Shown piece after piece: positions 24,683 to 38,344 of a stretch of DNA of 64,000 bases. The DNA comes from Kineosporia sp. A_224 (GTDB lineage: Bacteria > Actinomycetota > Actinomycetes > Actinomycetales > Kineosporiaceae). Both the position numbers and the translations under genes were made by a program. The notes under the pieces are model-generated. The model saw only the letters and a list, made by a program, of their open reading frames with translations. It was not told where the DNA came from and ran no database searches. The stretch covers positions 62,001 to 126,000 of the forward strand of contig NZ_MWLN01000199.1 of the NCBI RefSeq assembly GCF_002198655.1, in the 5' to 3' direction. Each line of letters opens with the position of its first letter. The first letter of the stretch is position 1.

Positions 24683-24685
24683 CGA

Positions 24686-24709
24686 CCCGGGCACCAGGGG
24701 ACGCCCGGG
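24686..24709. terminator. Hairpin closing the conservon operon
   Basis: CCCGGGC and GCCCGGG form a 7-base stem around a 10-base loop in the 34-base gap between the rightward GTPase gene and the leftward orphan gene, so it could end transcription from both sides. No T run is present. Confidence 0.45.
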
Positions 24710-24716
24710 ACGGCGT

Positions 24717-26990
24717 TCAGGGCGTCCGGAGCATCCAGTGCCCGTCGGTGGACCAGCCGAGGAACCGCTCCGGGATCGCGGCGCGGGTCACCCGGACGCC
24801 TCGACGGTGCGGCTCGTCGTGGGCTGGTGCCGACCGTGCGCCCCGCAGCCCGGCGAGCAGGGGGAGCAGTCGGCGCCGGTCGACGTCCGGTCGGGCCGCC
24901 ACCTGCGACCCGGCGAGGTCGAGGAAGCGGTCGGTGGCACCTGCGGGGGAGACGGACAGGAAGAACAGCGTCTGCCGCCACGCGTAGGCGGCGTCCTTGA
25001 CCGTCGGCAGCGGGCGCTTGTCGCCGGGGAGCCGACCGACGAGCGTGACGACCCGGCCGAAAGCCTCCTGTGCCAGGGGTTCCCAGCCGTTCTCCGGTCG
25101 CACGCCGAGACCGGCGACGAGCGCGGCGAGGTTGTGGGTCGTCAGCACCTGGGCCTGCTCGACGACGGTGCCGTTGGTCGCGACGGACCACCACCCGCGA
25201 CCGTCGACGTCGACCCCCGCGCGCTGCGCGGCGAGCAGGGCGAGGCCGCCCCGGTGCGGGCCGCGCACGGCGCTGACCCCGTCGGACAGAGCCAGCAGGG
25301 CGTCGGTGTCGATGCCGTAGTAGCGCGCGTAGGGCGTCCCGGCGAGCACCTCGGCGGCGAGCTTGGCGGCCCGGCTGAACTTCGCCGAGAAGGCGCCCAT
25401 GAAGATGTCCGCCGCCAGCTCCTCGGTGAGCGGCAGGTCGACCCCGGCGGCCCGCAGCAGCGTGTCGAGCTCGGCGACGAGCGGGTTCGGCAGGATCGTC
25501 CCCGGGAAGGCCGTCAGGGCCAGCCCGGCGACGCGGACCGCTGTGCGGCGTTGGACGTCGGCGGCCCCGCCCGCCGTCCGGTGCGGTGCGAGCGCGGCCA
25601 CCCAGGGCAGCTCGCCGAACCCGACCTGCCGGGCCAGGTCGAGCAGGAGCAGTGAGCGGCGGTGCCGGAAGGCGCCGTAGGCCGCCGCGACGAGGGTGCG
25701 CAGCCGGGGGTCGGTCCAGCTCTCCGCGAGGACGCCCGCCGTGATCTGCGGGACGAGCCCGGCGAGCACCTCGGACGACGGGACGACACCGAGTGCGACG
25801 AGCCGCTCGACGGTGGCGGCGGTCGACCGGCGCACCGTCCGCTCGACGCCTGCCGGCACCGGGTGCCCGTCGACCGGGGCGAGCAGGGCGTCCGGCGCGT
25901 AGATGCCGGTGTCGGCCGGGTGCTCGCGGACCCGGTCGGCGACCGCCCGGGCGAGGACGTCGTGCGTCGGCAGGGCGACGACACCGGCCTGGACCTCGCG
26001 GAGCGTGGCATGACGGTCCGTCCCCGGGACCCCGCGCTTGGCGAGCATCCCGTCGACGGCCGTCTGCAGCCGGCCGCGGTCACGGGCGGTGAGCGGGTGC
26101 CCCTCGACCGCACCGACGAGCGCGGAGCGCAGGGTCGCGAGGTTCTCCTTCGGGTTCAGGTGCTTGCGGCACAGCCGGTGCTCCGCCGCGAGCGCCCGGT
26201 ACCTGTCGAGGAGTGCCGCCGCGCGGTCGCCCCAGCCGTCCGGCACCAGCGCCGCGACCCGGCCGCCGTCGACGGTCTCGAGCCACAGGGTCAGCAGGTC
26301 GTCGCCGAACGGGGCCCAGACCTCGAGCGCCTCGCGCATCGCCTCGACGCGCGGGTTCGGCCGACGGGCCCGGAGCGTGGCCGCGGTCTCGCCGGCCGTG
26401 GCCCGCCACACCACCTCCGGTGCGGGTGCGGGGCGGGCCGCGGGGCGGGGCAGGAACCGCAGCCGGTCGGCGAACGGCGCCACGGTCGTGACGAGGGTCT
26501 GGGCGCCGGCCACGTCGCCCGCGTCGACGAGCCACGCGACCGTGAGGAGCACGGCCTCCTCGGGGACCGTCACGCGGTAGGTGCCCGCGTCGAGCAGCGC
26601 CGCGAGGTCGGCGAGGCCGGCCGGTCCGAGGTGGTGCCGGAAGAGGTCCAGCCGGGTCGCCGGCACGCCGGCGGCCGCGGCCGTCGCGACCTCGTCGGGC
26701 TCCAGCGGCCCGCCCGCGGCGGGGTCACCGGTCGCGAAACCACCGCGGACCACGGTCGGCGTCACCCAGGCCGGCAGACCCTCGACGGGCGTGCGGGAGC
26801 CGATCCGCAAGGTCCCCGTGAGCATGCCGGACAGCACCTTGCCCCACTGCCGGGCGCGGTGCTCGGCCCGGGTGCGGACCGCCGGGTCCTCGTGGGTGAG
26901 CGCGGTGACGAACGCCGTGGTCAGCTGCGCCGCCGCGTAGCCGCTGCTCGCCCCGACCCCGGTCGTGCCGTCGTCCCCCTGGTGCGTCAT
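24717..26990 (-). CDS. Large orphan protein of unknown function behind tRNA-like RNAs
   Basis: A 757-residue, probably soluble, mostly helical protein. I do not recognise a family. Visible features are AWVTPTVVRGGFATGDPAAGG near residue 70, a helical middle (WAPFGDDLLTLWLETVDGG, YRALAAEHRLCRKHLNPKENLATLRSALVGA), and a C-terminal half of repeated helix pairs compatible with HEAT- or ARM-like architecture (SFRHRRSLLLLDLARQ-type segments, LAADIFMGAFSAKFSRAAKLAAEVLAG). There is no transmembrane helix, nuclease motif or Walker motif that I can see. The ATG at 26990 begins two bases after the acceptor stem of a tRNA-like RNA; the frame stays open through both RNA copies to 27149, so the true start is uncertain. 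Candidate RNA-binding partner of those RNAs, by position only. Confidence 0.8.
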   Translation of the reverse strand: MTHQGDDGTTGVGASSGYAAAQLTTAFVTALTHEDPAVRTRAEHRARQWGKVLSGMLTGTLRIGSRTPVEGLPAWVTPTVVRGGFATGDPAAGGPLEPDEVATAAAAGVPATRLDLFRHHLGPAGLADLAALLDAGTYRVTVPEEAVLLTVAWLVDAGDVAGAQTLVTTVAPFADRLRFLPRPAARPAPAPEVVWRATAGETAATLRARRPNPRVEAMREALEVWAPFGDDLLTLWLETVDGGRVAALVPDGWGDRAAALLDRYRALAAEHRLCRKHLNPKENLATLRSALVGAVEGHPLTARDRGRLQTAVDGMLAKRGVPGTDRHATLREVQAGVVALPTHDVLARAVADRVREHPADTGIYAPDALLAPVDGHPVPAGVERTVRRSTAATVERLVALGVVPSSEVLAGLVPQITAGVLAESWTDPRLRTLVAAAYGAFRHRRSLLLLDLARQVGFGELPWVAALAPHRTAGGAADVQRRTAVRVAGLALTAFPGTILPNPLVAELDTLLRAAGVDLPLTEELAADIFMGAFSAKFSRAAKLAAEVLAGTPYARYYGIDTDALLALSDGVSAVRGPHRGGLALLAAQRAGVDVDGRGWWSVATNGTVVEQAQVLTTHNLAALVAGLGVRPENGWEPLAQEAFGRVVTLVGRLPGDKRPLPTVKDAAYAWRQTLFFLSVSPAGATDRFLDLAGSQVAARPDVDRRRLLPLLAGLRGARSAPAHDEPHRRGVRVTRAAIPERFLGWSTDGHWMLRTP

Positions 26991-26992
26991 GC

Positions 26993-27062
26993 CGACGTGG
27001 CAGGTGCTGCCCCTGCGCCCTCCGGGTCCCAGCCCGGTGCTCTGCTGCTGAGCTACACGTCG
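26993..27062 (-). ncRNA. tRNA-like RNA, copy A (anticodon-like GGG)
   Basis: On the minus strand these 70 bases fold as a cloverleaf: a perfect 7-bp acceptor stem CGACGTG/CACGTCG, U8-A9, D stem GCTC/GAGC with loop AGCAGCA, anticodon stem CCGGG/CCCGG with a 6-base loop CTGGGA, 5-base variable region, and T stem GCAGG/CCTGC with loop GGCAGCA. It departs from real tRNA in having a 6-base anticodon loop, no GG in the D loop and no TTC in the T loop. The base after the stem is G at 26992, then C, then the ATG of the orphan gene. Function unknown; a mimic, decoy, target or guide is possible. Confidence 0.65.
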
Positions 27063-27066
27063 CGGC

Positions 27067-27136
27067 CGACGTGGCAGGTGCTGCCCCTGCGCCCTCCGGG
27101 TAGCAGCCCGGTGCTCTGCTGCTGAGCTACACGTCG
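27067..27136 (-). ncRNA. tRNA-like RNA, copy B (anticodon-like GCT)
   Basis: A second 70-base copy lies 74 bases upstream of copy A, separated by four bases. It is identical to copy A in all four stems and in the D, T and variable loops. The only two differences fall at positions 35 and 36, changing the anticodon-like triplet from GGG to GCT while keeping T33 and A37. A TATCGT hexamer about 12 bases before its 5' end on the minus strand is a possible -10 box, so both RNAs and the orphan gene may be one transcript. Confidence 0.65.
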
Positions 27137-27286
27137 ACGGAGCGATCACGATAGGACGTCGGGGACCGGCCGCCGATGGAGTTTCGCGATCACCCTGCCC
27201 AGCCCGGCCGGCCGCCGCGACACGCTGGACACCTGTTCGAACGATCCGCTTCCTCTGTGGGCCCCTCTCGGGGGATGCTGGGACCC

Positions 27287-28531
27287 GTGACGGCGCAGAC
27301 GGTACGGGGGGCGCAGCGGGGTGCCTCGTCGTCCGCCGCGTCGCCCGGGCGAGCGCCGTCGGAGCCGCCGTTGCTCGTCGTCCTCGACGGCGACGGCCTG
27401 CTCCACCGGGCGTACCACGGCATGGCGGGCGACGACGAGCGGGACGCCCTGGGCCGCCCGACGTGGGCGCTGCGCGGCCTCGTCACCGCGCTCGCGCAGG
27501 CTGCGGCCCGGCTGCGGCCGGACGCCGTCCTCGTCGCCCTCGACTCGCACGAGCAGTCGGTCCGGGCCGGCCGGCACGCGGCGTACAAGGCGCACCGGCC
27601 GGAGAAGGACCACGACCTGCAGGTGCAGCTCGACCTCGCGCCCGACCTGCTCGGAGCGGCCGGGGTGCCGTTCGCGTGCGTGCGCGGGTACGAGGGGGAC
27701 GACGTCATGGCCTCCGGGGCGGCGCTCGCCCGGGACGCGGGCTGGCGCAGCGTCCTCGTGACGAGCGACCGGGACACCTTCGCCCTCGTCGACGACACGA
27801 CGTCCGTGCTCCGGGTCGGCGACGGCGGCGTCGAGGCCGGCTCGCTCGTCACCCCGACGCAGGTCCGTACCGCGTACGGCGTCCTGCCCGCGCACTACCG
27901 GGACCTCGCGGCGCTGCGCGGCGACCCGAGCGACAACCTGCCGGGGGTCGCCGGGATCGGGGAGAAGACCGCCGCCCGGCTGCTCGGCGCCTTCGGGTCG
28001 CTCGACGCGGCGCTGCACGCGCTCGACGACGACCGTGCCGCGGAGGTGGAGGCCGTCGTGGGGGCGGCCTGCGCCGCCGCCCTCGCCGACCCGGACACCC
28101 GGGACGTCGTCGAGCTCAACCGGCACCTCATGACGATGCACGACGACCTGCCGCTGCCCGACCTCGACGAGCTCATGCTGCCGCTCGAGCCGTCCCGGCT
28201 CATCGCGGCGCTGCGGGCGCGCGGGATCCGGCTCGGCCGCTCGCTGTGGGCGCTCGTCGGCGGTGAGCCGCCGCCGTGGGCGCCGAACGGCTACGACACG
28301 GTGCCCAAGGCGCTGCGGCTCGCGGAGGAGCCCGCGCCGTGGGAGGTCCGCGTGGTCCCGACGCTCGCCGAGCTCGCCGACCTGCGGGAGGCGACCGCAC
28401 GGGCGGTCGGCCAGGCCGTCGAGCAGGCCGCCCGGGCGGCGGTGGCGACCGTCGACCTCACGACCGCCGCGGTCGGACGGCGGCGAGGCCGCCCGGTCGC
28501 CGCCTGCGAGGACCAGCTCGAGCTGTTCTGA
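27287..28531 (+). CDS. 5'-3' exonuclease (Pol I N-terminal type, stand-alone)
   Basis: A 414-residue FEN-like nuclease related to the 5'-nuclease domain of DNA polymerase I. Motifs are LLVVLDGDGLLHRAYHG, AAYKAHRPEKDHDLQVQL, the metal-binding YEGDDVMASGAAL and LVTSDRDTFALVDD, and the helix-hairpin-helix DPSDNLPGVAGIGEKTAARLL. Such free-standing nucleases act on flaps and RNA primers in replication and repair. The C-terminal 120 residues are an Ala/Arg-rich extension ending DQLELF. GTG 27287 is chosen just before the conserved core; the frame is open from 27176. It is divergent from the tRNA-like RNAs. Confidence 0.92.
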   Translation: MTAQTVRGAQRGASSSAASPGRAPSEPPLLVVLDGDGLLHRAYHGMAGDDERDALGRPTWALRGLVTALAQAAARLRPDAVLVALDSHEQSVRAGRHAAYKAHRPEKDHDLQVQLDLAPDLLGAAGVPFACVRGYEGDDVMASGAALARDAGWRSVLVTSDRDTFALVDDTTSVLRVGDGGVEAGSLVTPTQVRTAYGVLPAHYRDLAALRGDPSDNLPGVAGIGEKTAARLLGAFGSLDAALHALDDDRAAEVEAVVGAACAAALADPDTRDVVELNRHLMTMHDDLPLPDLDELMLPLEPSRLIAALRARGIRLGRSLWALVGGEPPPWAPNGYDTVPKALRLAEEPAPWEVRVVPTLAELADLREATARAVGQAVEQAARAAVATVDLTTAAVGRRRGRPVAACEDQLELF

Positions 28532-37963: not shown

Positions 37964-38344
37964 GCGGACGAGCCGGACGGGCGGTCGCGTCGGTGGCCGT
38001 GAGGTCGCCGCCGAGGAAAGTCCGGACTCCGAAGGGCAGGGTGGTGGGTAACACCCACCCGGGGTGACCCGCGGGACAGTGCCACAGAGAACAGACCGCC
38101 GGGCGGCGCGAGCCGGCCGGTAAGGGTGAAACGGTGGTGTAAGAGACCACCAGCGTGCCGGGTGACCGGTGCGGCTCGGTAAACCCCACCCGGAGCAAGA
38201 CCGAACAGGGAGCGCTCGAGGGCTGCCCGCCCGAGCTCCCGGGTAGGTCGCTGGAGGGCGTCGGCAACGGCGCCCCGAGATGGATGGCCGCCGCCTCCGG
38301 TCCGCCGGAGGCACAGGATCCGGCTTACAGTCCGGCTCGTCCGC
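37964..38344 (+). ncRNA. rnpB: RNase P RNA, bacterial class A
   Basis: The catalytic RNA of RNase P, which cuts tRNA 5' leaders. The P1 helix pairs GCGGACGAGCCG at the 5' end with CGGCTCGTCCGC at the 3' end. Hallmark conserved segments are GAGGAAAGTCCGGACTCC near 38010, ACAGAGAACAGACCGCC, GGTAAGGGTGAAACGGTG, GTAAGAGACCACCAGC and the 3' CGGCTTACAG. TAGGCT at 37953-37958 is well placed as the -10 box. Ends are set from P1 and could be a few bases longer. Confidence 0.97.

Follow-up and report, generated by a model that had tools for sequence, protein, structure and literature searches.

A tRNA-shaped RNA with exchangeable anticodons linked to an all-helical protein of no assigned family in Kineosporia and other bacteria

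Introduction

Why do two cloverleaf RNAs that differ only in the anticodon stand directly before the start codon of a large gene? This question is raised by a stretch of 64,000 nucleotides of the actinomycete Kineosporia sp. A_224 (contig NZ_MWLN01000199.1, positions 62,001 to 126,000; hereafter the window, to which all coordinates refer), in which, on the minus strand, the tRNA-like copies B (triplet GCU, 27067..27136) and A (triplet GGG, 26993..27062) precede the gene for a 757-residue protein, P0001 (24717..26990). A preliminary description made from the sequence alone proposed that the two components form an RNA-protein system. Comparison of genome sequences establishes a two-part RNA-protein cassette with the RNA under tRNA-shape constraint, while the interpretation favoured here, an anticodon bait held by a dedicated protein, is put forward tentatively.

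Co-occurrence of the RNA and the protein

Relatives of P0001, confirmed by tblastn, are found at 51 loci spanning Actinomycetota, Pseudomonas, Achromobacter, an alphaproteobacterium and Myxococcota, with further relatives in metagenome bins labelled Planctomycetota, Melainabacteria and Armatimonadota. In nearly all 51 loci, one to four tRNA-likes per cassette are detected directly upstream on the same strand by ARAGORN, Rfam and a structure scan; none is seen at L029, L036, L038 (contig edge) and L055 (partial gene). The covariance model R1, for which 47 of these upstream RNAs served as input, finds the RNA beside most protein relatives in larger genome samples, where, fragments counted, the protein is matched in 44 of 296 Streptomyces (~15%), 25 of 201 members of the family containing Actinomadura (~12%), 19 of 193 Myxococcota (~10%), 10 of 249 Pseudomonas (~4%) and 4 of 396 genomes across the phylum of the window (the genus labels follow those of the named loci around which the samples were drawn; for Streptomyces the label was deduced). 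Scanning the 296 Streptomyces genomes with R1 only recovers the RNA in 40, of which 38 also carry the protein, and the two exceptions look like relics, one being a decayed copy and the other a remnant that lies at the edge of a contig. A homologous pair beside related proteins, which the preliminary description regarded as decisive, exists, as RNA and protein co-occur across phyla, and this linkage together with the covariation reported below supports a genuine RNA-protein pair.

The protein gene is patchy in distribution and often decayed; at L101, L126, L127, L166 and L157 a decayed gene lies behind a still recognisable tRNA-like RNA. A second, divergent protein clade in Streptomyces (L154-L156, L158-L161) has frames of about 560-700 amino acids and is preceded by RNAs mostly with the loop CUGCACA (triplet GCA), the loop of L160 being degenerate. 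Myxococcaceae-type homologues without detectable RNA comprise L064, L138-L142 and L144-L146, a subgroup of which shares another conserved upstream block, GTCGGGTTTTCGTCCGGCGCGTCCTGGG. The cassette is also present on large plasmids of Curtobacterium and Streptomyces (L170, L169), where the RNA gene has probably been annotated, since the locus tags skip one number directly before the protein. No relatives of P0001 were found in phages, viral contigs or E. coli, in viral and E. coli scans of limited reach.

A standalone two-gene cassette with the RNA first, in which the protein is often decayed while the RNA stays recognisable (L101, L126, L127), is also what would be expected of an RNA antitoxin, with the protein as a toxin that targets tRNAs or the ribosome and has its tRNA-binding site filled by the tRNA mimic. 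This explanation is improbable, however, given that the anticodon changes without a matching change in the protein, that a Myxococcaceae clade keeps the protein without the RNA and that no known toxin fold is matched.

Conservation of the tRNA shape

Covariation was assessed on a MAFFT alignment of the RNAs, with the fold of the window copies as the reference structure. Of the alignment cells in stems, 99.7% pair, 14 of the 21 stem pairs show changes on both sides, so that the compensatory changes named beforehand as a test are present, and the covariation score is 0.447 compared with 0.120 for shuffled and at most 0.087 for slid controls. Because the alignment members were chosen by tRNA-type searches, pairing as such is favoured, whereas this choice has no bearing on which pairs covary. 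The tertiary contacts are likewise maintained: among 124 RNAs the Levitt pair 15-48 is G-C in 112 and A-U in 8, and G19-C56 is present in 122. Positions 54 and 58 change jointly (U-A in 35, G-G in 88 RNAs), which argues that the odd T-loop of the window copies is a concerted, clade-specific elbow rather than decay.

In the window itself, sequence and repeat search agree with the two 70-nucleotide minus-strand cloverleaves of period 74 initially reported. The repeat search returns two 72-nucleotide minus-strand copies with 97% identity and a spacing of 74, folding reproduces stems of 7, 4, 5 and 5 base pairs in both, and the copies differ only at positions 35-36 (GGG versus GCU), within the six-nucleotide anticodon loops CUGGGA of copy A (27027..27032) and CUGCUA of copy B (27101..27106). 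The reported departures from the tRNA norm also hold, with AG replacing GG in the D-loop, GGCAGCA in place of TTCRANY in the T-loop and the six-nucleotide anticodon loop; G19 and C56 are nonetheless kept in both copies. Folding energy (-32.8 kcal/mol per copy) was dropped as proof of structure, because its z of about -1.4 is equal to, and no better than, that of the real tRNA-Val of the window (-1.2), and alone proves nothing.

The Rfam family RF00005 accepts both copies (44.4 bits for copy A and 44.9 for copy B; gathering threshold 29), no other Rfam family exceeds its gathering threshold for them and ARAGORN calls neither as a tRNA. R1 scores 84.0 bits for copy A and 83.5 for copy B. A scan of the host genome with the RNA model finds the pair to be single; the 27 other R1 matches reach at most 62.2 bits, and those checked are ordinary tRNAs. 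Compared with an elongator tRNA, the 7/4/5/5 cloverleaf and the tertiary pairs are present, a seven-nucleotide anticodon loop and a TTC T-loop are missing from the window copies and found in Pseudomonas copies, and an acceptor end and discriminator matching the anticodon are not observed. Whatever the anticodon, the discriminator is G73 in 89 of 95 copies of the main actinobacterial group and C73 in 8 of 9 Pseudomonas-type copies; the discriminator thus varies with the clade far more than with the triplet, and synthetase identity therefore does not track the anticodon.

Exchange of the anticodon

Altogether 32 triplets occur among 125 distinct RNAs on one type of body. On a protein tree with 113 tips the triplet switches at least 62 times, with columns 34-37 averaging 32.5 changes against 6.1 in all other columns, and the variability at positions 34-36 foreseen from the window is thereby seen across relatives. 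Among proteins at least 60% identical, positions 34-37 diverge about 6-9 times faster than the RNA body, and triplets can differ even between proteins that are 93-96% identical. Multi-copy arrays mostly mix triplets, with identical copies in L014, L117 and L135. Arrays of three or four copies are present at L014:3652-3961, L117, L125 and L173, and at L014 a duplicate of the start of the open reading frame (GCTATGAACGAC) after copy 3 shows tandem duplication of the RNA plus start codon.

Ordinary or relic tRNA genes that lie here by chance are scarcely credible. Although RF00005 matches the RNAs and the skipped locus tags on the two plasmids suggest an annotated RNA gene, the linkage across phyla, the 32 triplets on one body type and the co-occurrence in 38 of 40 genomes speak against them, and the linkage with the protein led to their rejection.

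The anticodon loop is non-random. C32 and U33 are nearly invariant, a single one among 57 distinct loops has A34 (p 0.001 versus A at 35-36), G37 is found only after a purine at position 36 (20/26 versus 0/22) and positions 37-38 equal those of the same-triplet tRNA of the window host 13 of 32 times compared with 5.8 expected (0 of 5000 shuffles). All these counts take the loops as independent observations despite the relatedness of the sequences. Stop-reading triplets occur at L009, L026, L039 and L122, UCA three times and CUA once.

Natural-like anticodons and the near-canonical Pseudomonas copies, which have an encoded CCA, would suit a non-canonical tRNA active in translation together with a helper, charged via its constant body and inserting one amino acid at variable codons, or reading stops (UCA, CUA). 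Six-nucleotide loops in some copies and the lack of U54/U55 in most actinobacterial copies are, however, at odds with such a role, as is the lack in the protein, by Pfam or PDB-sequence search, of the synthetase catalytic domain expected of a PylRS-type synthetase with its own tRNA. Two variants were discarded, namely that the anticodon fills a gap in the host tRNA set, as the window host already has Pro-GGG, and that it is read by the codons of the open reading frame itself, which shows no bias towards the cognate codon (p 0.85). Overall, a function in translation is quite improbable.

Transcription start, spacing and processing

In actinobacterial upstream regions the motif TAnnnT starts 13-19 nucleotides before the RNA in 70 of 84 cases (0-5 in shifted windows), TTG lies 18 nucleotides before TAnnnT, and GACAAT is found at the same place before the RNA in Pseudomonas. 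From this conserved promoter position, about 16 nucleotides ahead of the RNA in actinobacteria, the transcript is predicted to start within a few nucleotides of the RNA 5' end. The -10-like TATCGT of the window (27148..27153, minus strand) lies at -17 from the RNA 5' end, a position kept in relatives; the -35 is weak, and a consensus scan alone misses the -10. Read on the minus strand from 27153 down, TATCGT is followed by copy B, copy A, two bases and the ATG at 26990 of the 757-codon open reading frame, which ends at 24717, and the abutment of RNA and start codon initially described is confirmed.

The spacing is not peculiar to the window. The ATG lies 2-4 nucleotides past position 72 in 78 of 79 actinobacterial cases, with a gap devoid of a Shine-Dalgarno sequence, while most Pseudomonas-type gaps measure 28-29 nucleotides, a Shine-Dalgarno-like motif being present in 16 of 19 Pseudomonas-type cases. 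RNase Z cuts after base 73 on tRNAs without encoded CCA, and a cut at this site would, with the actinobacterial spacing, give a leaderless mRNA. The earlier suggestion that processing frees the message at its start codon therefore fits the actinobacterial anatomy, but not the longer Pseudomonas gap, mostly with a Shine-Dalgarno motif, and the cleavage itself is presumed.

These observations bear on the strongest rival, a cis-acting leader, in which the tRNA fold would serve solely the message that carries it, either setting its processing to a leaderless form or promoting or gating the binding of ribosomes, and the protein might bind the fold for self-regulation. The identity of the anticodon would then be irrelevant and drift. 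The strength of this rival derives from the finding that translation in vitro increases 2- to 6.3-fold when tRNAs are placed in cis before a Shine-Dalgarno sequence (PMC9142559) and from the freedom with which the anticodon could drift. The near-constant actinobacterial distance to the ATG, the predicted transcript start at the RNA and an anticodon divergence near the fourfold-degenerate rate are all in line with a leader. Tandem arrays of up to four copies and a spacing not kept in Pseudomonas and Myxococcota are less readily explained, and the same holds for the avoidance of A34, the rule coupling positions 36 and 37 and the retention of tRNA ends and tertiary contacts. A cis-acting leader is thus considered unlikely, yet it is to be taken seriously.

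The protein

AlphaFold2, run on 29 sequences, predicts an almost all-helical protein with a predicted local distance difference test score (pLDDT) of 87.7 and a predicted template modelling score of 0.84. Many Arg, Tyr, Trp and Phe residues are invariant in the protein alignment, with motifs including AADIFMG, EQxQ and RYY. P0001 has no match in Pfam, NCBIfam or PADLOC (library of 2023), and no Pfam match is common to 28 of its relatives. Neither a PDB-sequence relative nor a fold relative was detected by Foldseek PDB, BFVD or VIA-align for the whole protein and residues 388-757; the best structural Z scores, 6.7 and 7.8, are within the range of common helical arrangements, and the comparison with HEAT/ARM alpha-solenoids gives a best Z of 7.8 over 83 residues of the C-terminal part. 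From the pairing with the RNA we infer that the protein binds it.

The preliminary description drew an analogy with bacterial Y RNAs bound by Ro60 homologues. A tRNA-like fold beside a protein gene and a weak, permuted match to the YrlA model could suggest such a scaffold for an RNA quality-control protein, but P0001 contains no TROVE/Ro60 domain and the match, 23.5 bits against a gathering threshold of 69, spans two copies. Membership in this group is not borne out, and a scaffold of the Y RNA kind is very unlikely. The decoy, sensor or guide functions also suggested in that description are hypothetical.

Extent of the cassette and its surroundings

In a congener, G002, the flanking DNA on both sides is 93-94% identical but encloses 2.9 kb of unrelated TetR/ABC sequence, which delimits the cassette of promoter, two tRNA-likes and open reading frame to about 24683..27201 (minus strand) and nothing more. 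As the same intergenic spot is occupied in G002 by genes for a TetR regulator and an ABC exporter (L211, G002:C255:42000-52000), the site may be an exchange spot. The divergent gene adjoining the cassette (27176-28528, plus strand) encodes the 5'-3' exonuclease domains 5_3_exonuc_N and 5_3_exonuc of Pfam, and is also present in genomes without the cassette. A class A RNase P RNA gene (37969-38343, plus strand; 288 bits) is located about 11 kb from the tRNA-likes. Beyond local synteny, no conserved neighbours or operons were found.

A proposed anticodon bait held by a dedicated protein

Among the explanations, a self-contained ribonucleoprotein in which the protein holds the tRNA mimic and the anticodon loop serves as bait or sensor is preferred, although with well under even confidence. 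The RNA would be excised at its tRNA-like ends, leaving a leaderless mRNA in actinobacteria, and the protein would bind it through the constant body. The exposed anticodon loop could then bait enzymes that act on tRNA anticodons. Candidate attackers are the anticodon nucleases found among rival toxins, in toxin-antitoxin modules and in phages; once the bait is damaged, the protein would change its state and set off a response. Two reasons favour the bait: the other models do not easily accommodate an anticodon that is exchanged and yet stays natural while the body is fixed, and RtcR is a known bacterial precedent for the sensing of tRNAs broken in the anticodon arm (PMC7790460). In the wider frame of a conflict or surveillance system, interchangeable anticodons on a protein-held, tRNA-shaped scaffold would allow enzymes attacking anticodons to be sensed or absorbed, with copying of the scaffold and change of the triplet widening the range; this extension is speculative, though possible.

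Several observations weigh against the bait. Database scans reveal no effector domain in the protein, and defence-island neighbours are lacking, as among 133 neighbour proteins no PADLOC family has more than two matches, in what is a rough test. A Myxococcaceae group keeps the protein while R1 sees no RNA, even with filters off. Furthermore, at 70-90% protein identity positions 34-36 diverge about 1.2-2.3 times as fast as fourfold-degenerate sites, above 90% they diverge more slowly than these, and T-loop position 59 changes about as often as the anticodon columns (30). Indifference to the identity of the anticodon, rather than selection for change, is therefore possible, and the sequence pattern could represent drift in a loop that is free to take any identity. 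Positive selection on the anticodon was considered and set aside, the divergence being near the fourfold rate.

If the ribonucleoprotein is real, it would represent a new kind of tRNA mimicry, and it could also be a novel means of detecting tRNA damage in bacteria. A freely changing anticodon on a fixed body raises the testable question of what in the cell reads it. Annotation pipelines in several phyla probably file the RNA as a tRNA and the protein as hypothetical.

Comparison with known systems

No description of the RNA-protein pair was found in the full-text literature, with subscription papers and preprints outside its coverage; as far as the searched papers, an incomplete library, show, the two-part system and its behaviour are new to the literature, while the RNA fold itself is known. 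With elongator tRNAs (RF00005) the RNA shares the cloverleaf lengths, Levitt 15-48, G19-C56, C32/U33 and a score above gathering, but it differs by one body type with dozens of anticodons, a regular protein partner, a G54/G55 T-loop in most actinobacterial copies and some six-nucleotide loops. Ro60/Rsr with its Y RNA (YrlA, RF02553) equally combines a tRNA-like RNA with an adjacent protein gene, whereas here a TROVE domain is absent, each copy forms one cloverleaf and the anticodon is hypervariable.

The yjdF riboswitch (PMC9142559) also places a tRNA-like fold upstream of an open reading frame in a bacterial mRNA, yet it is a ligand-binding leader, in contrast to the tRNA-like acceptor ends, arrays and variable anticodon of the present RNA. 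Allo-tRNAs and tRNA-like polycistrons are likewise non-canonical bacterial tRNA-like genes, some of which are suspected to be part of mobile or toxin-antitoxin systems (PMC7609411); theirs is an 8/4 or 9/3 architecture, compared with 7/5, a five-nucleotide variable region and a specific protein here. The tRNA-Other of Bacillus cereus (PMC3399842) is a pseudo-tRNA with a role outside translation and part of a larger RNA, but it is known from one instance, which has a Trp anticodon and lies near a genomic island, and no family of partner proteins has been described for it. Finally, although RtcR is a CARF-domain sensor of real tRNA halves with no dedicated mimic, the RtcR/RtcBA RNA repair operon provides the precedent for sensing tRNAs cut near the anticodon (PMC7790460).
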